Shown in pieces: positions 3,819 through 27,871 of a stretch of DNA of 32,287 nt; positions within the stretch are counted from its first letter, which is position 1, and every line of letters begins with the position of its first letter. The stretch covers positions 1 through 32,287 of the forward strand of contig VGRE01000014.1 in NCBI GenBank assembly GCA_016875435.1, read 5' to 3'. The translations under genes and the position numbers were made by a program. This DNA comes from Deltaproteobacteria bacterium. Lineage in GTDB: Bacteria; Myxococcota_A; UBA796; SXON01. The notes under the pieces were generated by a model. It saw nothing but the letters and a program-made list of their open reading frames with translations, did not search any database and had not been told where the DNA came from.

Positions 3819-4262
3819 CTAGCCGCGCTCGACCTTCTCGACGGCGATCTCGATCTTCTCGATGGCCATCGCGGAGCTGTCCGAGTTCATGTCGGGCACG
3901 TTCCACTTGCAGGGCCAGCCTTCGTAGAAGTTGTAGCGGGCGACTTCGGTGGTGCCGTCCTGGTCGAGGACGATGACCGAGCCGGAACGACGGTCGATCT
4001 TGCCGTCCTCGATGTTCTTGCGCCAGGTCCAGAGGTCGTCGGTGGCGGTGTAGCCGCGCTCGAGCACGATGTTGGCGTAGGTGGTGCGGCCGGGCTTCTT
4101 GCGGACCACGATGTCGTTGCCCTGCTTGAACTCGACGATCTCGGTCTCGCTGTCCATGCCGGACACGGACTTGAAGCCGCCGACGATGATCTTGTTGTCG
4201 GCGACGATTCCCTGGATCTCCAGGAGGAAGTTGTAGGTACCAAACAGTTCTTCGGTAGGCAC
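3819..4262 (-). CDS. Contractile tail tube protein, phage T4 gp19-like (orphan)
   Basis: A 147-residue protein of the gp19-like inner tube family (Hcp-fold), which forms the hexameric rings of phage tail tubes and of extracellular contractile injection systems such as PVC and Afp. Family hallmarks run in order: YNFLLEIQGI, GGFKSVSGMDSETEIVEFKQG, VVRKKPGRTTYANIVLERG, DDLWTWRKNIEDGKIDRR, VARYNFYEGWPCKWNVPDMN and AIEKIEIAVEKVE. The length is typical. The start is GTG at 4262 with GGAG 8 nt upstream. No sheath, baseplate, spike, ATPase or toxin gene is within the 32 kb, so it stands alone downstream of mfd after a 158-nt gap. It may supply a system encoded elsewhere, or be a remnant. Confidence 0.92.
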   Translation of the reverse strand: MPTEELFGTYNFLLEIQGIVADNKIIVGGFKSVSGMDSETEIVEFKQGNDIVVRKKPGRTTYANIVLERGYTATDDLWTWRKNIEDGKIDRRSGSVIVLDQDGTTEVARYNFYEGWPCKWNVPDMNSDSSAMAIEKIEIAVEKVERG

Positions 4263-4420
4263 GGTAGCACTCCATTCGGACGGGACGTTGACTCGAACGC
4301 GACCGCGACGTGCGAGACTGGGATGCCGTCAGGTGTGTTCCCCGGGGGGAGCGGGCTCCTGCCGACGCGGGGATCATTCACCACCTGCCCCGGCCCTGCA
4401 AGCGGTTTTCGGGTTTTTTT

Positions 4421-7400
4421 CTAGCCCTGCAGGCGACCGATGGCCCAGTCGACGAAGGTGAAGGGATCCCGGGCCTCTTCCGGGGTGCACCGCACCTCGA
4501 TGCCATCGGAACCCTGCGCCCGGAAGCGCGCCGGCTCCCGGGTGCAGAGCTCGACCAGATGCTGCGGGTCGAGCGCGTGCCGCGGGCTGAGCACGAACAG
4601 CGCACGCACCTTGAGCATCGAGCACTTCGACACCCCGAGATCGCGACACGAGATGCGCAGCTCGGTGACCCGTCGCAAGTGCTGGGCCTCCAGCGGCGGG
4701 GGCCCGTGGCGCCGCTCGAGATCGGCGAACACCCCCGCCACGCGGGTGGCGGTGGGCGCGAGGGAGAGCTTCTGGTAGGCGTCGAGTCGGTCGGCGGTGT
4801 CGGGCACCCAGTCTTCCGGCAAGAACGCTGGGAGCGGCACCTCTACCTCGGTGTCGACCGGCGGCTGCATCGCATCGCCGCGGAGCCGGTGGACAGCCTC
4901 GTCGAGCAGCTGGACGTAGGCGTCGAAGCCGATGGCGGCGATGTGGCCGTGCTGCTTCTCGCCGAGGATCTCGCCGCCGCCGCGCATCTCGAGGTCGCGG
5001 CTGGCGAGGCCGAACCCCGAGCCGAGGGCGCTGGCCTCCATGAGCGCGTGGAGGCGTCCCAGCGCCTGCTTGCTCGCCACGCCGGTGCCGCCGACCAGCA
5101 GGATGCAGCGGGCGCCGACGTCGGCGCGGCCCACCCGCCCGCGGAGCTGGTAGAGCTGGGCGACGCCGAAGCTCTCGGCCCGGTTGATCAGCATGAGGTT
5201 GGCGTTCGGCAAGTCCACGCCGCTCTCGACGATCGCGGTGCAAAGGAGCACGTCGACCTCGCCTCCTGCGAAGCGCGCCATGGCCGACTCCAGTTTCTCG
5301 GCGCTCATCTGGCCGTGCGCCACGGTGATGCTGGCCTCCGGCACGATCTTGGCCAGCCATCGCGCCACGCCGCCGATGCTCTGCACTCGATTGTGGACGA
5401 TGAAAGACTGCCCTCCGCGAGTCTTCTCGGCGAGGATCTCCTCGCGAATGCGGGTCGCGTCGAATCGGACCACCTCGGTGTGGATGGGCACGCGCCCCTC
5501 GGGGGGCGTGGTGATGAGCGACAGGCTGCGCAGGCCTCCGAGCGCCATGTGGAGCGTGCGCGGGATCGGGGTGGCCGAGAGGGCGAGGTAGTGGATGCCC
5601 GAGGCGAGGCGACGGCTTTCCTCCTTCTGCTTGGTGCCGAAGCGATGCTCCTCGTCCACCACGACCAGGCCTAGGCGGCGGAAGCGCACGCTGCGACCGA
5701 GTGCGGCGGTCGTGGCGACAAGAACGTCCACTTTTCCGGAAGATACGTCGCTGACGATAGTCCGGATTTTTGAACTATCCACGAGCCGCGACAATCCCTC
5801 GACTCGCGCGCCAAACGGCTCGAGGCGTGCCTTGAAACTGCGGAGATGCTGTGCCGCGAGCACGGTGGTGGGCACCAGCACCAGCGCCTGGTAGCCCTCG
5901 AGGAGCACGCGGAAGGCTGCCCGCATCGCCACCTCGGTCTTGCCGAAACCCACGTCGCCCACGACTAGCCGGTCCATCGGCGTGCCAGCGGCGAGGTCGC
6001 CGAGCACGGCCTCGATGGCCTCCTGCTGCTCGGGAGTTTCCATGTATGGAAAGGCCTCTTCGAACCTAGTGAACAAGGCGTCCAGACCGGTGAACGCCGG
6101 CGCCTGGACGAGCTTGCGTCCCGCGTGGATACGCAGGATCTCCGCCGCGAGCTTGAGCACGGCGTCGCGCACCTTGGCCCGGCGAAGTTCCCACGTGCCA
6201 CCGCCCAGCTTGTCGAGCCGCGGCGCGGGCGCCTCGCCGGGCGAGCGGTAGGGGGCGAGCAGGTCGAGGCGGAAGACCGGGACGTAGAGGCGATCGCCGT
6301 CGCGGTACTCCACCACCACGAAGTCGCCTGCCGTCTCGCCCAGCGGCATGCGCGCGAGGCCGCGGTACAGGCCGATGCCGTGTCGCGCGTGGACCACCGG
6401 CTCGCCCCGGTTGACGGTGCCGAGGCCCACCGCCGCCGCGCGGCGAAATCGTGTCGCGACCGAGACGCTCTCGGTGCGTAGCCTCTCGCCGAAGATCTCG
6501 TCGGCGGTGACGAAGGCGATGTCGGGCGCGGTGAAGCCCTCGGGCAGGTCGCCCACCACCAGCGCCACGGTACGCGGCGACGGCGCGTCGCCGGGAACGA
6601 GGCCGTGTGGCTCCAGCAGCTGGCGGATGCGGTTGGCGCGCGTGGCGTCGTCGGCCACCAGCACCACGCTCGCACCGGTCGCGGCGCGCTTTCGCAGCGC
6701 GGTGACGACGGGCGCGAGGTCGCCCTGGCTGCCGACGCGCAGATCGGCGTTCGAGCGCGAGTCGAAGCCGAGGCCGCCCGCCCGGAGCGCGCGGCCGTCG
6801 ATCGTCACCGGCGCGTACCGGTCGCCGGGACGGACCAGCGGCTTGTCTTCCTCGCGGAGGGCATCGAGCCGGCGCTCCACGTCGTCCCATGCCCGGGCGA
6901 GGGCCGCCTCGACCAGCGGCGGCTCGTGTACCAGCACGGGGAACGGCAACTCGGGGGGGCCACACTCGGCGAGGGCGGGCAGGTAATCCTCGCAGCTCGC
7001 GAACCAGGTGCCCTCGCGCAAGTCGGCGAGCACCTGGCGCCGGTCGCGTCCGACGACCCCGCGCTCGTTGGCCACGGCGTGAACGTAGGCGGCGGCGCGC
7101 TCCGCGCTGGCCGAGTCGAGCGGCGCCTCGCGCGCGGGGAGCAACCTCGCCGGGCCGCGCACCGCCTCGACCTCGTCGTCGAGGAAGAGCACCCGGGTGC
7201 TGCGGTCGTTGCCGATGCCCCAGGCTTCCACGCCACCTCCGCGCAGGGCCACCGTCCCCGGGCCGTCAACCTGGGGCGAGGCGAGGTAGCCTCGGGCCAC
7301 CAGCCAGCGGACGAGGGCCTGGGGACCGAGGCGGTCGCCCAGGCGGATCTCCCGGCCGTCGAGCGGCGGCACCCGGGCGAGCAGGGCGCGCGCCTCCGCC

Positions 7401-21141: not shown

Positions 21142-21999
21142 GTGGCCGGCAGTGGCGCCCCCGAGCACGTCCGACACCGCCTCGGCGCGGGCTTCGTGGC
21201 GCTCGCCGCCGTGACCTACGCCCTGCTGGTGTTCGGCAGCACCGTGCGCGTGCATGGCGCCGGCCTCGCCTGCCCCGACTGGCCGCTGTGTTTCGGCGAG
21301 CTGCTGCCGCGCTTCGACTTCCGCATCCTCCTGGAGTGGGGGCACCGGGTGCTCGCCGGCGGCGTCTCGCTTGGCTTCACCGGCCTCTCCGCCTACATCG
21401 CCTCGCATCGCGAGCTGCGGCACGAGCTGGGCGCGCACCTGCTGGTCCTCGCGGGCATTCTCTGCGCCCAGATCGTCTTCGGCGGCCTTACCGTCCTCAA
21501 GCTGCTCGCGTACTGGTCGGTCACGACGCACCTCCTCCTCGGCAACGCCTTCATGGTGGGGCTCGTCGGCCTGGCGATTCGCCTGCGAGGCACCGGCGGC
21601 GGCGCGCCTCCGCGCGGGCCAGTGGCCGCGCTCGCGGTACTGGTGACGGTGCAGATGGCGCTCGGCGGGCTGGTGTCGAGTAACTACGCCGGCCTCGCCT
21701 GCACCGAGTGGCCCACCTGCAACGGCGGCGTGTGGTTCCCCACCTTCACCGGCATCGTGGGGCTGCAACTCGCGCATCGCCTCGGCGCCTACGCGGTGCT
21801 GGTCGCGGCGGGGATCGTCGCGTGGCGCGCGCGCGGGCTCGGCACCTGGGTGCTGGCGCTCGTGCTGGGACAGGTGGCCGTGGGCATCAGCAACGTTCTC
21901 CTGGCCATGCCGGCCGAGCTGGCGGTGCTGCACGCCGCGCTGGCCCACGGCATCGTCGCCCTCACCTCGATCCTCGCCTGGCGAGCGGTGGCGAAGTGA
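21142..21999 (+). CDS. ctaA: Heme A synthase (CtaA/COX15)
   Basis: A 285-residue polytopic membrane protein with about eight helices in two related halves. It converts heme O to heme A. The heme-binding His residues are His68 (EWGHRVLAG), His130 (VTTHLLLGN), His212 (QLAHRLGAY) and His264 or His269 (VLHAALAHG). Both halves carry the periplasmic Cys pair: ACPDWPLC (Cys44, Cys50) and ACTEWPTC (Cys187, Cys193). The start is GTG at 21142 with a good GGAGG 5 nt upstream. The stop overlaps the start of ctaB (GTGA), so the two are translationally coupled. Confidence 0.95.
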   Translation: MAGSGAPEHVRHRLGAGFVALAAVTYALLVFGSTVRVHGAGLACPDWPLCFGELLPRFDFRILLEWGHRVLAGGVSLGFTGLSAYIASHRELRHELGAHLLVLAGILCAQIVFGGLTVLKLLAYWSVTTHLLLGNAFMVGLVGLAIRLRGTGGGAPPRGPVAALAVLVTVQMALGGLVSSNYAGLACTEWPTCNGGVWFPTFTGIVGLQLAHRLGAYAVLVAAGIVAWRARGLGTWVLALVLGQVAVGISNVLLAMPAELAVLHAALAHGIVALTSILAWRAVAK

Positions 22000-22901
22000 A
22001 GGCCGTTGCTACCCCGCGGTCAGTCGCGACGCAGCTTCGTCTCTGGTGGGACATGACCCGCCCCCGGGTGCTGCTCCTGGTGCTGTTCACGGGCCTCCCG
22101 GTCTTTGGCCTCGTGCGGGCCGAGGGTCACACCCTAGGCCGCATGGCCTGGGTGATCCTCGGGACGGCCCTCGCGGGCGCGGCCTCGTCGACGCTCAACG
22201 CCTACCTCGAGCGCGACACCGACGCGCGCATGGCGCGCACGCAGCGGCGGCCCTTGCCGGCCGCGGCGGTGCAGCCGGGGCACGCCCTCGCCATCGGCCT
22301 CGGGCTCACCGTGCTCTCCACCCTGCTCCTGTGGTGGGTCGGCGGCGCCTTCGCGGCGGGCGTGGGCCTCGCCACCATCCTCTTCTACGTGCTGGTGTAC
22401 ACCATCTGGCTCAAGCCGCGCACGCCTCAGAACATCGTGATCGGGGGCGCGGCGGGGTCGACGGCGCCGCTCATCGCCGAGGCGGCGCTCAGCGGCCAGC
22501 TCACGTGGGCGAGCTGGGTACTTTTCCTCATCGTCTTCCTCTGGACGCCGCCCCACTTCTGGGCCCTCGCCATCTACCGGAAGGAGGAGTACGCGGCGGC
22601 GGGGTTTCCGATGATGCCGAGCGTGGTCGGCAACGCCTCCACCCGGCGGCAGTCGCTGGTCTACGCGATCCTCCTCCTGCTCACCACCCTCACGCCGGTT
22701 CCCCTCGGCATGCTGTCCATGTTTTACGGCGCCGTCGCGCTCCTCGCGGGGGGCTGGTTCGCCTGGCGGGTGTACGTGTCGATGCGCGCCGACGATCCTC
22801 AGGTGGACTACGCGGTGTTCCGCGACTCGATCCGCTACCTTTTCCTTCTCTTCGGCGCGATGTTGCTCGATCTCGCCGTTGCTGCCGCTCTCCACGGGTG
22901 A
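21996..22901 (+). CDS. ctaB: Heme O synthase (protoheme IX farnesyltransferase)
   Basis: A 301-residue UbiA-superfamily prenyltransferase with eight or nine membrane helices. It adds a farnesyl group to protoheme to make heme O, the substrate of CtaA. The first Asp-rich motif is NAYLERDTDARMARTQRRPL (about residues 68-87). Other conserved stretches are YTIWLKPRTPQNIVIGGAAG, WTPPHFWALAIYRKEEYAAA and GFPMMPSVVG. The start is the GTG at 21996, overlapping the ctaA stop by 3 nt, consistent with coupled translation. The next gene begins 119 nt downstream, the largest gap in this locus, which may hold a separate promoter for the structural genes. Confidence 0.96.
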   Translation: MKAVATPRSVATQLRLWWDMTRPRVLLLVLFTGLPVFGLVRAEGHTLGRMAWVILGTALAGAASSTLNAYLERDTDARMARTQRRPLPAAAVQPGHALAIGLGLTVLSTLLLWWVGGAFAAGVGLATILFYVLVYTIWLKPRTPQNIVIGGAAGSTAPLIAEAALSGQLTWASWVLFLIVFLWTPPHFWALAIYRKEEYAAAGFPMMPSVVGNASTRRQSLVYAILLLLTTLTPVPLGMLSMFYGAVALLAGGWFAWRVYVSMRADDPQVDYAVFRDSIRYLFLLFGAMLLDLAVAAALHG

Positions 22902-23020: not shown

Positions 23021-23689
23021 GTGAAGCTCGGAACCTTCGGAACGGCCAGATGCCGTGTCCTCTCCGTGGCCACCCTGCTGGCAATGGCCGCGTTTTCCGC
23101 CGGGTGCGACCCGGCCCAGGCCCGCGTGCACACCGGCGACACCCTCTTCTCCAACAACTGCGCCCCTTGCCACGGCGCCCAGGGCGAGGGGCTCGCCGTG
23201 GCCAAGGCGCCCGCCATCGGCGGCCTGCCCGAGTGGTACGTGAAGCATCAGGTCGAGGGCTTCCGCCAGGGCCTGCGTGGCACGCACTTCGACGACATCC
23301 AGGGCATGCGCATGCGCCCGATGGCGCTCACGCTCGTCAACGACGAGGAAGTGGCGAAGGTGAGCGCCTACGTGGCGAAGCTGCCCCCGGCCAACCCGGC
23401 CACCGAGCTCCAGGGCGGCAACGCCGAGGCCGGCGCCGGCTACTACGGCACCTGCGCCGCCTGTCACGGGACCGATGGCATGGGCAACGAGGCCCTGGGC
23501 GCGCCCCCTCTGGTGGGCGCCTCCGACTGGTATCTCCGCGATCAGCTTGAGAAGTTCCAATCGGGCGTGCGCGGCGCGCACCCCAAGGACGCCCGCGGCG
23601 CGCAGATGGCGCCGATGGCCAAGACCCTGCCCGACGGGCAGGCCATCAAGGACGTGCTCGCGCATGTCGCCACCCTCGGCAAGAGATAG
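23021..23689 (+). CDS. Two-heme cytochrome c, putative lipoprotein
   Basis: A 222-residue c4-like cytochrome. It has an N-terminal export signal with a lipobox-like SAGC (Cys29), then two homologous cytochrome domains. The heme sites are CAPCH (47-51) and CAACH (145-149); likely Met ligands are in MRPMALTL (near 98-101) and MAPMAKTL (near 196-199). Both domains share the motif pattern EWYVKHQVEGFRQGLRG / DWYLRDQLEKFQSGVRG, showing internal duplication. It should carry electrons to the CuA site of subunit II. The start GTG 23021 has GGAG about 10 nt upstream and begins the signal peptide; the frame is open far upstream inside ctaB in another frame and that part is not coding. Confidence 0.92.
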   Translation: MKLGTFGTARCRVLSVATLLAMAAFSAGCDPAQARVHTGDTLFSNNCAPCHGAQGEGLAVAKAPAIGGLPEWYVKHQVEGFRQGLRGTHFDDIQGMRMRPMALTLVNDEEVAKVSAYVAKLPPANPATELQGGNAEAGAGYYGTCAACHGTDGMGNEALGAPPLVGASDWYLRDQLEKFQSGVRGAHPKDARGAQMAPMAKTLPDGQAIKDVLAHVATLGKR

Positions 23690-23697
23690 GAGGGGCA

Positions 23698-23820
23698 ATG
23701 TCCGCTGAACATTTCGAAGATGGCGACGTGGCCGCCCGCTTCTGGACGAAGTGGCTCCTCATCGGCGTGGTGGCGTTCTCGGGCGCCGCATTCACCATCC
23801 TCCTCATCACGGGGAACTAG
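23698..23820 (+). CDS. 40-residue single-pass membrane peptide in the oxidase operon
   Basis: ATG at 23698 to TAG at 23818-23820. The product begins MSAEHFEDGDVAARFWTKW and has one hydrophobic helix (about residues 20-38, LLIGVVAFSGAAFTILLIT). A strong Shine-Dalgarno (AGGAGGGG) overlaps the preceding stop and lies 4 nt from the ATG, and the next gene (subunit II) starts 3 nt after the stop, so translation is well supported. Its size and position recall small accessory oxidase subunits (CcoQ-like, or subunit IV of aa3 oxidases), but no sequence match is claimed. It may stabilise the complex or help electron entry. Confidence 0.8.
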   Translation: MSAEHFEDGDVAARFWTKWLLIGVVAFSGAAFTILLITGN

Positions 23821-23823
23821 GCG

Positions 23824-24501
23824 ATGCTGCACCTCACCCAGTGGCTGGTGGTGCCGGCCTCCACCTTCGCCGACGATATCGACTTCGTGTTCGGGCTCAT
23901 CTTCTGGATGGTGGGCTTCTGGTACGTGCTGTCGAACGTCGCGTTCTTCTACTTGCTCTTCAAGTACCGGGCGCAACCCGGGAAGAAGGCGCTGTACGTC
24001 ACCGGCACCGAGCACGACCTGCTGAAGTGGGTGGAGTGGCCTCACTACGCCATCATCGTGTGCGACATCGTCATCATCGCGGCCGCCGTGAAGGTCTGGT
24101 ACGAGGTGAAGCAGGACCTGCCGCCCGCCGATGCCGAAGTCACCGTCGTGGCCCAGCAGTGGGCGTGGAGCTTCGTCCACCCCGGCGCCGACAACAAGAT
24201 CGGCACCAGCGACGACATCAAGACGGTCGACGAGTTGCACCTCGAGGTCGACAAGCTGGTGCACTGGCGCCTCCAGGCTCGCGACGTGTTGCACAGCTTC
24301 TCAGTGCCCGCCTTCCGCATCAAGCAGGACGCGATCCCCGGTCGCGACATCATGGGCTGGTTCGAGCCCAACCGCGTGGGCACTTACGACATCCAGTGCG
24401 CTGAGATCTGCGGCATCGGCCACGGCATCATGGGCGCGCGGGTCATCGTCCACACCCCCGAGGAGTACGCGGCCTGGGTCGCGAGCTCCTCCCAGCACTA
24501 G
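23824..24501 (+). CDS. ctaC: Cytochrome c oxidase subunit II (CuA)
   Basis: A 225-residue subunit II. Two membrane helices (about 20-46 and 74-94) are followed by the periplasmic CuA domain. The aromatic electron-entry motif is QQWAWSF (111-117). CuA ligands are His157 (VLHSF) and CAEICGIGHGIM, giving Cys192, Glu194, Cys196, His200 and Met203. There is no C-terminal cytochrome c domain, so electrons must come from separate cytochromes, which are encoded on either side. The N-terminus has no cleavable signal or lipobox. The ATG at 23824 is 3 nt after the small peptide gene; no strong Shine-Dalgarno, so coupling is likely. Confidence 0.96.
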   Translation: MLHLTQWLVVPASTFADDIDFVFGLIFWMVGFWYVLSNVAFFYLLFKYRAQPGKKALYVTGTEHDLLKWVEWPHYAIIVCDIVIIAAAVKVWYEVKQDLPPADAEVTVVAQQWAWSFVHPGADNKIGTSDDIKTVDELHLEVDKLVHWRLQARDVLHSFSVPAFRIKQDAIPGRDIMGWFEPNRVGTYDIQCAEICGIGHGIMGARVIVHTPEEYAAWVASSSQH

Positions 24502-24519: not shown

Positions 24520-26241
24520 ATGTCGCACCCTGAGCACGCGCACGCTGACCATGGTCACGCGGCGCACGGCGACCACCACCACGAGATGAGCTTCTCGGAA
24601 AAGTACCTTTTCCCGACCGACCACAAGTACATCGCGAAGCAGTACATGCTGACCGGCATGATCATGGCGGTGGCGGCGGGCTTCTTCGCCTACGCCTTCC
24701 GCATGCAGCTCGCCTTCCCCGGCATGAGCGTGCCCTTCTTCGGCGTGGTGTCGCCCACCGAGTACAACTCGCTGGTCACCCAGCACGGCAGCATCATGGT
24801 GTTCTGGGTGGCGATGCCGGTGCTCATCGCGGCCTTCGGCAACTTCCTCATCCCGCTGATGATCGGCGCCGACGACATGGTCTTCCCGAGGTTGAACCGG
24901 CTGAGCTACCAGCTCTTCCTGCTGAGCGCCATCCTGGTGGTGGTCGGCTGGTTCGTCCCGGGCGGCGGCTTCGGCGGCGCCTGGACCAGCTACCCCCCGC
25001 TCTCCGCCAAGGCCGAGTACAGCCTAACCCCGGCCGGCTCCTCCATCTGGCTCGCGGCGGTGGCCGTCGAGTTTGCGGCCTTCCTCCTCGGTGGTATCAA
25101 CTTCGTCGTCACCGCGATGAACGCCCGCGCCCCGGGCATGAAGTGGCACGACGTGCCCATCGTGGTGTGGTTCATCTGCATCGCCAGCATCTTGTTCATG
25201 GCCTCGGTGGGCCCGCTCATCGCCGGCGCGATCATGCTGCTTTTCGACCAGCAGCTCGGCACGCACTTCTTCGATCCGGTGGCCGGCGGCGACCCCATCC
25301 TCTGGCAGCACCTGTTCTGGTTCTTCGGGCACCCCGAGGTGTACGTGGTGCTCCTGCCGGCCATCGGCATCTGCGCCGAGATCATCCCGGTGTTCGCGCG
25401 CAAGAAGCTCTTTGGCTACCGGGCGATCCTCTACACGGGCATCGCCACCGGCGTGCTCTCCTTCTTCGTGTGGGCGCACCACCAGTTCGTGGCCGGCATC
25501 GACCCGCGCATGGCCAACGTGTTCACCATCACCACGGTGCTCATCTCCATCCCCATCGCGGAGATGGTGTTTCTCTACATCGCCACCCTGTACGGCGGAT
25601 CGATCAAGTTCAGCGTGCCGATGCTGTGGGCGCTCAGCTTCATCTTCTGCTTCCTCATCGGCGGCGTGACCGGCATCTTCCTCGGCGCCAGCGGCGCCGA
25701 CATCTACCTCCACGACACCTACTTCGTGGTGGCGCACTTCCACTACACCTTCTACCCCATCGCGATCATCGGCACCTTCGCCGGGGTGACGCACTGGTTC
25801 CCGAAGCTGTTCGGCCGCTACATGGACGAGAAGCTCGGCCAGATCCACTTCTGGGGCACGGTGCTGAGCTTCAATCTCATCTTCATCCCGCTCTTCTTCA
25901 CTGGGCTGGCGGGCGACCACCGTCGCATCTACAACTACAACAACTTCGCCGAGCTCGGCACCCCCGACCTGCAGTGGCTGCGGATCCTCGCCACCGTGGC
26001 GCTGGTCATCATGCTGATCTTCCAGGTGCTGTTCGTCTACAACTTCATCAACAGCATCTTCAAGGGCAAGCTGGCTCCGACCAACCCCTGGAAGGCCACC
26101 ACGCTGGAGTGGACCACCCCCAGCGCCCAGCCCGGCCACGGCAACTGGACGCCGGAGACGATGCCCTCGGTCTACCGCGGCCCCTACGAGTACAGCGCTC
26201 CGGGTCGCGACGACGACTTCCACCCCCAGAACGTTCCCTAG
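24520..26241 (+). CDS. ctaD: Cytochrome c oxidase subunit I with non-canonical K-channel
   Basis: A 573-residue heme-copper oxidase subunit I. Metal ligands are complete: His89 (TQHGS) and His408 for heme a, His406 for heme a3, and His271, His320 and His321 for CuB, with Tyr275 for the His-Tyr crosslink. Glu273 (GHPEVY) marks the A1 type, and the D-channel is intact (Asp119, Asn126, Asn194). The K-channel is not: at a constant 5-residue offset from Paracoccus numbering, Ser291 is Ala286, Thr351 is Ile346 and Lys354 is Met349, while Glu348 appears next to it. The N-terminus is His-rich (nine His in residues 1-21). The ATG at 24520 has GAGGAA upstream, 18 nt after subunit II. Confidence 0.97.
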   Translation: MSHPEHAHADHGHAAHGDHHHEMSFSEKYLFPTDHKYIAKQYMLTGMIMAVAAGFFAYAFRMQLAFPGMSVPFFGVVSPTEYNSLVTQHGSIMVFWVAMPVLIAAFGNFLIPLMIGADDMVFPRLNRLSYQLFLLSAILVVVGWFVPGGGFGGAWTSYPPLSAKAEYSLTPAGSSIWLAAVAVEFAAFLLGGINFVVTAMNARAPGMKWHDVPIVVWFICIASILFMASVGPLIAGAIMLLFDQQLGTHFFDPVAGGDPILWQHLFWFFGHPEVYVVLLPAIGICAEIIPVFARKKLFGYRAILYTGIATGVLSFFVWAHHQFVAGIDPRMANVFTITTVLISIPIAEMVFLYIATLYGGSIKFSVPMLWALSFIFCFLIGGVTGIFLGASGADIYLHDTYFVVAHFHYTFYPIAIIGTFAGVTHWFPKLFGRYMDEKLGQIHFWGTVLSFNLIFIPLFFTGLAGDHRRIYNYNNFAELGTPDLQWLRILATVALVIMLIFQVLFVYNFINSIFKGKLAPTNPWKATTLEWTTPSAQPGHGNWTPETMPSVYRGPYEYSAPGRDDDFHPQNVP

Positions 26242-26254
26242 GGAGACGCCCACC

Positions 26255-26830
26255 ATGGCCTTCCGTCCGATTGCCACCACCCGCAGCGCCACGGGGATGC
26301 CCACCGGGCGCCTCGCGATCTGGTGGCTGATCGTCTCCGAGATCGTGATCTTCGGGGGCGTCCTCGCCTCCTACATCATGCACCGCATCGGCCACCCCGA
26401 GTGGGCCTACCAGGCCGAGCACACCAACCTCGTGGCGGGCTCGGTCAACACCATCGTGCTGCTCACCTCGAGCCTGCTCGCCGTGCTCGCGCACAACGCG
26501 GCCGAGATGGGCGACGGCAAGAAGGCCGCCAAGCTCTTCGTGGGCACCATCCTCGGTGGCCTGGTGTTCCTCGTGATCAAGTCCTTCGAGTGGGGCAACG
26601 AGATCGCCCACGGCTACACGATCACGTCGAGCGGCTTCTGGGCTTTCTACTACACCGCCGCCGGCATCCACGGCACCCACGTGCTGGTGGGCATGATCGT
26701 CATGGGCTTCGTGGCCTACGACGCCTGGCACGGCAGGGAACTCCAGCGCATCGAGTTCGCCGGGATTTACTGGCACTTCGTCGACGTGGTCTGGATTTTC
26801 CTCTTCCCTCTCCTCTACATCGCGAGCTGA
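26255..26830 (+). CDS. ctaE: Cytochrome c oxidase subunit III (five-helix type)
   Basis: A 191-residue subunit III. It has about five membrane helices and lacks the first two of the seven-helix mitochondrial type, as is usual in many bacteria. Family features are WWLIVSEIVIFGGVLASYIM (residues 22-41), KSFEWGNEI (the conserved Glu helix), GIHGTHVLVGMIVMG, and the C-terminal YWHFVDVVWIFLFPLLYIAS. The ATG at 26255 has GGGAG about 9 nt upstream and lies 13 nt after ctaD. A second subunit III-like gene lies at 27278. Confidence 0.94.
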   Translation: MAFRPIATTRSATGMPTGRLAIWWLIVSEIVIFGGVLASYIMHRIGHPEWAYQAEHTNLVAGSVNTIVLLTSSLLAVLAHNAAEMGDGKKAAKLFVGTILGGLVFLVIKSFEWGNEIAHGYTITSSGFWAFYYTAAGIHGTHVLVGMIVMGFVAYDAWHGRELQRIEFAGIYWHFVDVVWIFLFPLLYIAS

Positions 26831-26832
26831 TC

Positions 26833-27276
26833 ATGTCTGGCGACGCTCACCACGACCACGCTCACGCCGAACACCACGACCACAGCAAGTTCTACATCAA
26901 GGTCTGGGCAGCGCTGTTCGTGCTGTTCTTGATCAGCGTGTTCGGCACGTTAACGCCGTGGTTTTTCGTCACGATCATCGTGGGCTTCGGGATCGCGCTG
27001 GTGAAGGCCTACCTCGTCGTGAGGTACTTCATGCACGTGGACATCGAGAAGCCGGTGGTTCACTACGCGCTCATCGCGGGCCTGGCCCTGATGGTGCTCT
27101 TCTTCGCGGCGGTGTCGCCCGACGTGCTCAACCACGAGGGCAGCCGCTGGGTGAACGTGGCCGCCCGCGCCGAGATGGAGCGCCGCGAGGCGGCCCACGC
27201 CGCCGGTGAGGGTGGGCACCACGAGGCCGCGCCCGCCGCGGGGCACGAGGCGCCGGCCGCCGAGGCTGGTCACTAG
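26833..27276 (+). CDS. Cytochrome c oxidase subunit IV family protein, His-rich ends
   Basis: A 147-residue protein with three membrane helices (about residues 22-40, 45-65 and 78-96), in the order typical of the prokaryotic subunit IV family (KFYIKVWAALFVLFLIS, then AYLVVRYFMHVDIEKP). It probably stabilises the oxidase. Both ends are His-rich: MSGDAHHDHAHAEHHDHS at the N-terminus, and a soluble C-terminal tail of Ala, Glu and His. The ATG at 26833 follows the subunit III stop by 2 nt, so translation is probably coupled. The His clusters could bind copper, which is inference. Confidence 0.88.
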   Translation: MSGDAHHDHAHAEHHDHSKFYIKVWAALFVLFLISVFGTLTPWFFVTIIVGFGIALVKAYLVVRYFMHVDIEKPVVHYALIAGLALMVLFFAAVSPDVLNHEGSRWVNVAARAEMERREAAHAAGEGGHHEAAPAAGHEAPAAEAGH

Positions 27277-27277
27277 C

Positions 27278-27871
27278 GTGACCGACGCGCCCCCGGAACG
27301 CGACTTCCGGCTGGTGCACCCGGCGCCGCGCGCGCGACGGCCGGTGGTGCCGAGCGAGGTGATCGCGATGCTGGTTTTCGTGTTCACCGAGGTGATGTTC
27401 TTCGGGGGCCTGGTCAGCGCGCACACCATCACGCGCTCCAACTGGCCGATGTGGCCGCCGCCGGGCCAGCCACGGCTGCCCATCGAGGCCACCGCGGTAA
27501 ACACCGCGGTCCTGCTCGCCAGCGCCGGACTCCTGTGGCTGGCGGGCCGCCGTCACGTCGAGGGGCGGGCGCGGGCGCCGTTGCTGGGCGCGATGGCCGC
27601 CGGGGGGTTCTTCGTGGTGGCCCAGGGCTACGAGTGGGTGGGCCTCGTGCGCGAGGGGCTCACGATGCAGTCGAGCACCCACGGCGCCTTCTTCTACCTG
27701 ATCGTCGGCACGCACGCCTTGCACGTGCTGGCCGGGCTCGGGGTCCTGGTCGCGCTCCGCGCGCGCCTCGCCGCCGGGCGACTCAGCGTCGACGAGTTCA
27801 CCGCGGGTCGCATCTTCTGGTACTTCGTGGTGGTGCTCTGGCCGGTGTTGTACTGGCGGGTGTACCTGTGA
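27278..27871 (+). CDS. Second cytochrome oxidase subunit III-like protein
   Basis: A 197-residue five-helix protein of the subunit III superfamily (CoxC/NorE). Motifs include VFTEVMFFGGLVSAHTI (about residues 34-50), AVNTAVLLASAGLLWLAGR, QGYEWVGLVREGLT, GTHALHVLAGLGVLVAL and IFWYFVVVLWPVLYW. It is clearly related to, but divergent from, the product of the gene at 26255, so it is not a fragment completing that gene; each has the core five helices. The start is GTG at 27278, 1 nt after the subunit IV stop. Its stop overlaps the next start (GTGA). It could replace the other subunit III under some condition or form a pair with it. Confidence 0.9.
   Translation: MTDAPPERDFRLVHPAPRARRPVVPSEVIAMLVFVFTEVMFFGGLVSAHTITRSNWPMWPPPGQPRLPIEATAVNTAVLLASAGLLWLAGRRHVEGRARAPLLGAMAAGGFFVVAQGYEWVGLVREGLTMQSSTHGAFFYLIVGTHALHVLAGLGVLVALRARLAAGRLSVDEFTAGRIFWYFVVVLWPVLYWRVYL

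Follow-up and report, generated by a model that had tools for sequence, protein, structure and literature searches.

A conserved one-helix peptide encoded directly upstream of coxB, a candidate accessory subunit of one A-type cytochrome c oxidase lineage

The cytochrome c oxidase gene cluster in the 32,287-nucleotide stretch of DNA analysed here (hereafter the window) holds, between a c-type cytochrome gene and coxB, an open reading frame (ORF) of only 40 codons, running from ATG to TAG, with the 40-aa product MSAEHFEDGDVAARFWTKWLLIGVVAFSGAAFTILLITGN. Is this ORF a gene and, if so, does its product belong to the oxidase? A first-pass annotation had described a membrane peptide gene with an AGGAGG motif over the preceding stop codon and spacings of 8 and 3 nt to its neighbours. 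Its coordinates, size, motif and spacings all agree with the sequence as we read it: the cytochrome c gene stops with TAG at 23687-23689, 8 nt before the ORF, and the stop codon of the ORF (23818-23820) is followed by 3 nt (gcg) and then by the ATG of coxB, which lies in the same reading frame (Table 1). ORFs of 30-60 codons are frequent in this G+C-rich window, however, so that the ORF by itself proves little and comparison with other genomes is needed.

Table 1 Features of the oxidase gene cluster around the small ORF, in window coordinates.
Feature	Coordinates	Strand	Basis
CtaA, heme A synthase	21142..21999	+	PF02628
CtaB, heme O synthase (UbiA family)	21999..22901	+	PF01040
Two-domain (diheme) c-type cytochrome, GTG start as read	23021..23689	+	PF00034, two stretches
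AGGAGG Shine-Dalgarno-like site	23688..23693	+	Sequence; overlaps the upstream cytochrome c stop
Small ORF, one transmembrane helix	23698..23820	+	Sequence, AF2 model, family members at the same place
CoxB, cytochrome c oxidase subunit II, two TM helices, presumed CuA motif CAEICGIGHGIM	23824..24501	+	TIGR02866, PF00116, AF2, structure alignment
CoxA, catalytic subunit I, A-type	24520..26241	+	PF00115; nearest solved chains are A-type subunit I
CoxC, subunit III	26255..26830	+	PF00510
CoxD, COX4_pro / caa3 subunit IV type; ordinary small subunit, not the peptide	26833..27276	+	PF03626, TIGR02229
Second CoxC-like protein, GTG start as read	27278..27871	+	PF00510; present in most long loci examined

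The window CoxA aligns without gaps to the A-type subunit I of Paracoccus and Rhodobacter around HPEVY, GADDMVFPRLN and HDTYFVVAHFHY, motifs that we take to mark it as A-type, and it matches TIGR02891 (CtaD_CoxA) below the cut-off of that model (574.5 of 670.75 bits). Two subunit III-like genes flank the subunit IV gene, an arrangement retained in most long loci. The subunit IV gene encodes a small membrane protein of the same operon type as the peptide, but is a separate gene with its own family matches.

We first asked whether the ORF is found at the same place in related oxidase loci. A scan of one genome per species (84,980 species) with the window CoxB returned 44 loci; the scan relied on conserved stretches of this CoxB, and close relatives are thus favoured among them. 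One of these loci (L064) begins inside coxB, and an automatic search found an ORF of 33-64 aa with one predicted helix directly 5' of coxB in 39 of the other 43. When the frames were read, such an ORF was also present in three of the remaining loci (L025, L026 and L059), and in the fourth (L056) the mere 87 bases that precede the CoxB match encode the end of one. In a wider collection of 144 coxB loci (CoxB identity of at least 46%), in which several are one place retrieved more than once, 142 carry a one-helix ORF immediately before coxB, with 106 distinct peptides; the two misses are L056 and L064, both cut by contig ends. Conservation at the same place, which the first-pass annotation had proposed as a check, was therefore found. 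A cytochrome c gene precedes the peptide gene in most loci examined. Exceptions among the loci with enough DNA are L052 and L055, with a ctaB-like gene (about 4020-4830) instead of the diheme cytochrome c upstream of the peptide. Over the 106 distinct members, an SD-like 4-5-mer lies within 18 nt upstream of the start in 81, and the gap to coxB is shorter than 20 nt in 91.

The same set bears on whether a stop codon might have cut the peptide loose from the N-terminus of CoxB, as a former segment or signal anchor of that protein. In the window the two reading frames agree, and the in-frame class is the largest (45/44/17 for in frame, +1 and +2 relative to coxB), with a naive binomial P of 0.03 for rows that are not independent. 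Yet more than half of the 106 loci are out of frame, CoxB of oxidases that do without the peptide has a similar N-terminus, and, as described below, the match of CoxB to subunit II structures begins roughly where CoxB itself begins. We consider a split CoxB very unlikely.

Next, we estimated how closely the peptide gene is linked to this kind of oxidase. In 377 Myxococcota genomes, a profile of 51 peptide members (threshold E <= 1e-3) matched 116 places in 110 genomes, and CoxB of the window type was found at 114 places (E <= 1.1e-73), 109 of which have a peptide match directly upstream. Of the five coxB places without one, two (G257 and G289) are truncated at contig ends, and in G062 coxB begins close to the end of a contig and the peptide lies close to a different contig end, which probably reflects a split assembly. 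The other two, G147 and G350, do encode the peptide (E 5.6e-9 and 6e-5), in G350 in a divergent form. Conversely, 110 of the 116 peptide places adjoin a listed coxB and six do not (G062, G308, G272, G046, G076 and G332), so that, aside from the split assembly of G062, five of the 116 matches lie away from coxB. The peptides of G308 (L152), G272 (L153) and G076 (L166) are family-like, with no cox gene in the surrounding 2.1-2.5 kb, and the 1.8 kb examined around the G046 place (L082) held no match to the proteins of the window cox cluster. By eye, L152 and L166 encode similar non-cox neighbours.

As a control, we analysed more distant CoxB proteins from the same phylum, 36-46% identical to that of the window (sister type). 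A hydrophobic small ORF in the ~300 nt upstream was absent at all 13 sister-type coxB genes checked, one of which (L159) has a weakly hydrophobic 78-codon ORF ~690 nt upstream. Nor did the peptide profile give a convincing match (best E 0.46) in 25 stretches around sister-type coxB, some of which are the same places at greater length. Five genomes (G002, G004, G008, G010 and G345) carry both kinds of oxidase, with the second, related cluster lacking the peptide. In a CoxA tree, one branch with a support of 100/100 parts 42 peptide-lineage rows from 10 peptide-less rows. Thus, the link of the peptide gene to one coxB/coxA lineage is almost strict.

The peptide also occurs in other phyla, as seen in four phylum samples, each built around a centre genome that was picked because it carries the gene and is counted among the matches; these centres are a Gemmatimonadota, an Opitutales, a Binatia and a Nitrospira MAG. 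In the G377 sample the profile matched 21 of 298 genomes (E <= 1e-3), and all 20 loci examined have the peptide between cytochrome c and coxB. At E <= 1e-4, the G378 and G380 samples yielded only the centre genome itself (1 of 288 and 1 of 247 genomes, respectively) and the G379 sample two of 46 genomes, centre included. The peptide lies between cytochrome c and coxB in the four loci from these three samples as well, three of them being the centre loci themselves.

A profile built without the window peptide and without its nearest distinct relative (L022) placed the window peptide at the head of 484 ORF segments from the window, with E 0.0015 against 4.3 for the runner-up, which argues that the ORF is more than a chance reading frame. 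Across the 4.8-Mb genome, the same alignment gave no other match at E <= 10, although the one to the peptide was weak (E 0.2). We then compared peptide genes by codon position in 55 pairs of equal length and at least 50% protein identity, which are not independent of one another. The third position holds the most differences in 43 of them, as in L052/L055 (1/0/8 for first, second and third positions), L030/L043 (5/2/19), L070/L073 (5/4/18) and L047/L063 (6/4/17). Counter-examples are L074/L075 (10/9/10) and L075/L076 (11/10/10), and several further pairs have dN/dS near or above 1. The window copy itself differs from that of L022 by 13/10/10, with pN (0.32) exceeding pS (0.14), whereas CoxB of the same two loci is 95% identical and differs by 12/4/40; CoxA is 96% identical. 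Of the 33 differences between the two peptide genes, 22 fall in codons 14-27 (window 23737-23778), with frame and length kept. The peptide gene of G010/L003 has the same form of this block and a single synonymous difference from the window. The first-pass annotation had named a lack of third-position bias as the finding that would speak against the gene; the bias is seen across the family pairs and is missing from the comparison of the window with L022. In our reading of the sequences, the family evidence outweighs this one pair, yet the window copy appears to be under weak or altered constraint, with which its weak profile matches are consistent. Together, the comparisons indicate that the window ORF is a real, conserved protein-coding gene tied to one oxidase lineage.

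The consensus over the 106 members begins with a charged N-terminus containing P-D/E-E/D-L-A, continues with K/R, F, I, T, M, A, G and V and one always-aromatic position, and closes with a hydrophobic end and hardly any tail; the window copy has T17 and L20 in place of the consensus F and T. Lys/Arg and Asp/Glu average 2.1 and 3.5 on the N side of the helix, and 0.4 and 0.3 on the C side. Along the helix, conservation varies with a period of 100 degrees (P 0.0095 by permutation), and the conserved face comprises window positions 20, 23, 27, 31 and 34, occupied in the window by L20, G23, F27, A31 and I34. The strongly conserved F at position 17 sits ~70 degrees off this face. This pattern bears on the possibility that the ORF is a leader whose translation controls coxB and whose product is unimportant, a role that its shortness, its tight spacing and its overlap with coxB in 16 of the 106 distinct loci would suit. 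Residue conservation at the protein level over several phyla, and its restriction to one side of the helix, make a mere leader extremely improbable.

Consistent with the single helix claimed in the first-pass annotation, an AF2 model of the read-through chain of peptide and CoxB (40 rows) places a helix at residues 9-38, with a pLDDT of 86 for residues 11-20, 91 for 21-30, 69 for 31-40 and 47 at the joint; it gives no binding site for the peptide. CoxB in the model has two long helices, spanning residues 58-90 and 106-139 in read-through numbering, and aligns along its length to A-type subunit II chains, with Z up to 17.8. When the read-through model was aligned with other structures, 45 of the 50 listed rows started at residue 38-49, about the start of CoxB itself, and the peptide helix is thus barely covered by the alignment. 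Four other rows cover the periplasmic domain only, and the last, which begins at residue 9, is 9a4u_B, from an integrative model of a different complex.

Does the peptide belong to a known family? The window peptide alone had no match in Pfam or NCBIfam, 37 family members gave scattered weak matches of which none was convincing, and a phmmer search of the PDB with the window peptide alone yielded matches at chance level. A literature search with most of its coverage outside the subscription titles found no paper on this peptide. The closest known parallel is subunit IIa of B-type oxidases (CbaD/CoxIIa, PF08113; about 34 aa). According to the available parts of Prunetti et al. (2011; PMC3128077), IIa is small, has one helix and is often left unannotated, its gene lies directly upstream of that of subunit II, and its length in bacteria is about 34-71 aa. 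There it is described as standing in, with opposite polarity, for the missing first helix of subunit II, and no IIa is reported in those parts where a B-type subunit II has two helices. The motif PX1-3G(T/A) is found in most IIa sequences, and a Trp is conserved towards the C-terminal end. The window peptide shares with IIa the gene position, the size and the single helix. The IIa helix runs antiparallel to TM1 of A-type subunit II, a direction that may also hold for the window peptide. The enzymes differ, however: as far as that source goes, the IIa enzyme is a B-type oxidase with a one-helix subunit II, and the oxidase here is A-type with a two-helix subunit II. The motif is absent from the window peptide and occurs in one of the 106 distinct members. 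Trp occurs anywhere in 41 of the 106, without a Trp-dominated column, and the window copy has its Trp at 16 and 19, so that the late Trp of IIa has no counterpart. The CoxIIa Pfam model matched neither the window peptide nor any of the 37 members, it had no match at E <= 1 in the window's own genome, and a profile comparison with Thermus IIa gave an hhalign probability of 0.8%. On these grounds (two-helix subunit II, missing motif, no CoxIIa match, hhalign result) we reject membership of the IIa family, which is highly unlikely despite the shared place and size.

Subunit IV of the Paracoccus denitrificans aa3 oxidase, which has one helix, is likewise a small extra subunit of an A-type enzyme (1qle_D, 7ate_D). 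Kinship with it was rejected at an hhalign probability of 0.9%, with no such family among the Pfam matches. The best small-chain match in the PDB is a 37-aa chain labelled 'subunit I / unknown' in 8k9e, 8k9f, 8x2j and 9ilt, covering most of the length, with an E of 0.024 when 37 members were used (below four rhodopsin entries) and of 0.013, in first place, with 51 members. Its hhalign probability of 78.6% was reached by none of 200 half-preserving shuffles but by one of 75 unrelated TM segments, and the likeness is therefore a lead only. We take these four entries to be alternative complex III of Chloroflexus aurantiacus; if so, the chain belongs to a different complex.

Our combined findings suggest that the peptide is probably a hitherto undescribed accessory subunit, with one helix, of the A-type cytochrome c oxidase encoded directly downstream. 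The first-pass annotation had raised the idea of a new small oxidase subunit, and the conserved gene, the nearly strict linkage, the conserved helix face and the lack of a curated family all speak for it; presence in the complex is what we infer from them. Translation of the peptide is probably coupled to that of cytochrome c upstream and of CoxB downstream. The helix would insert N-in/C-out, in keeping with Lys/Arg beside the helix on the N side and an almost absent C-terminal tail. Its conserved face may pack on CoxB and/or CoxA, and the packed helix would then steady the oxidase complex.

The main rival to a structural subunit is a transient assembly factor, acting for example when CoxB is inserted or CuA is loaded. 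Such a factor would leave the same pattern in the genomes, and the linkage thus fits either function. Fast sequence turnover with hydrophobicity kept, and a CoxB with a short N-tail and no signal peptide by eye, would suit such a factor; hits to the oxidase assembly family COX14 in Pfam, obtained for two of 37 members, are at chance level (best E 0.078). Sister CoxB proteins with a similarly short N-tail nonetheless manage without the peptide, and the conserved helix face suits a stable partner. We regard an assembly factor as rather unlikely.

The CoxA sequences of this lineage have a further peculiarity. The lysine that we take to be that of the K-pathway (K354 in Paracoccus) is absent in all 42 peptide-lineage CoxA read, the window and its near copies included. 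PTGIKVF of Paracoccus aligns without gaps to PIAEMVF of the window CoxA, in which Glu348-Met349 correspond to window positions 25561-25566. The Glu one residue before the lost Lys is found in 41 of the 42, with Gln in one (L058). The 11 peptide-less sister CoxA read also lack the Lys, and they lack the Glu at that place. Since the sister oxidases without the peptide have lost the Lys too, the peptide helix is not simply a consequence of this loss. No pertinent paper on a K-pathway lysine loss of this kind was found. In a more speculative reading, the peptide could mark an undescribed A-type lineage without the K-pathway Lys, its helix being a structural element peculiar to this altered enzyme or a docking helix for a quinol:cytochrome c complex, related to 'subunit I' of 8k9e; we think this improbable.

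The K-pathway lysine observation may matter more than the peptide itself. The peptide family, conserved and without a convincing Pfam or NCBIfam match, joins the few one-helix proteins that are linked to oxidases, and about a hundred distinct loci carry its gene. Its position shows that the gene slot of IIa in B-type oxidases also serves an A-type lineage, in which no missing helix has to be replaced.
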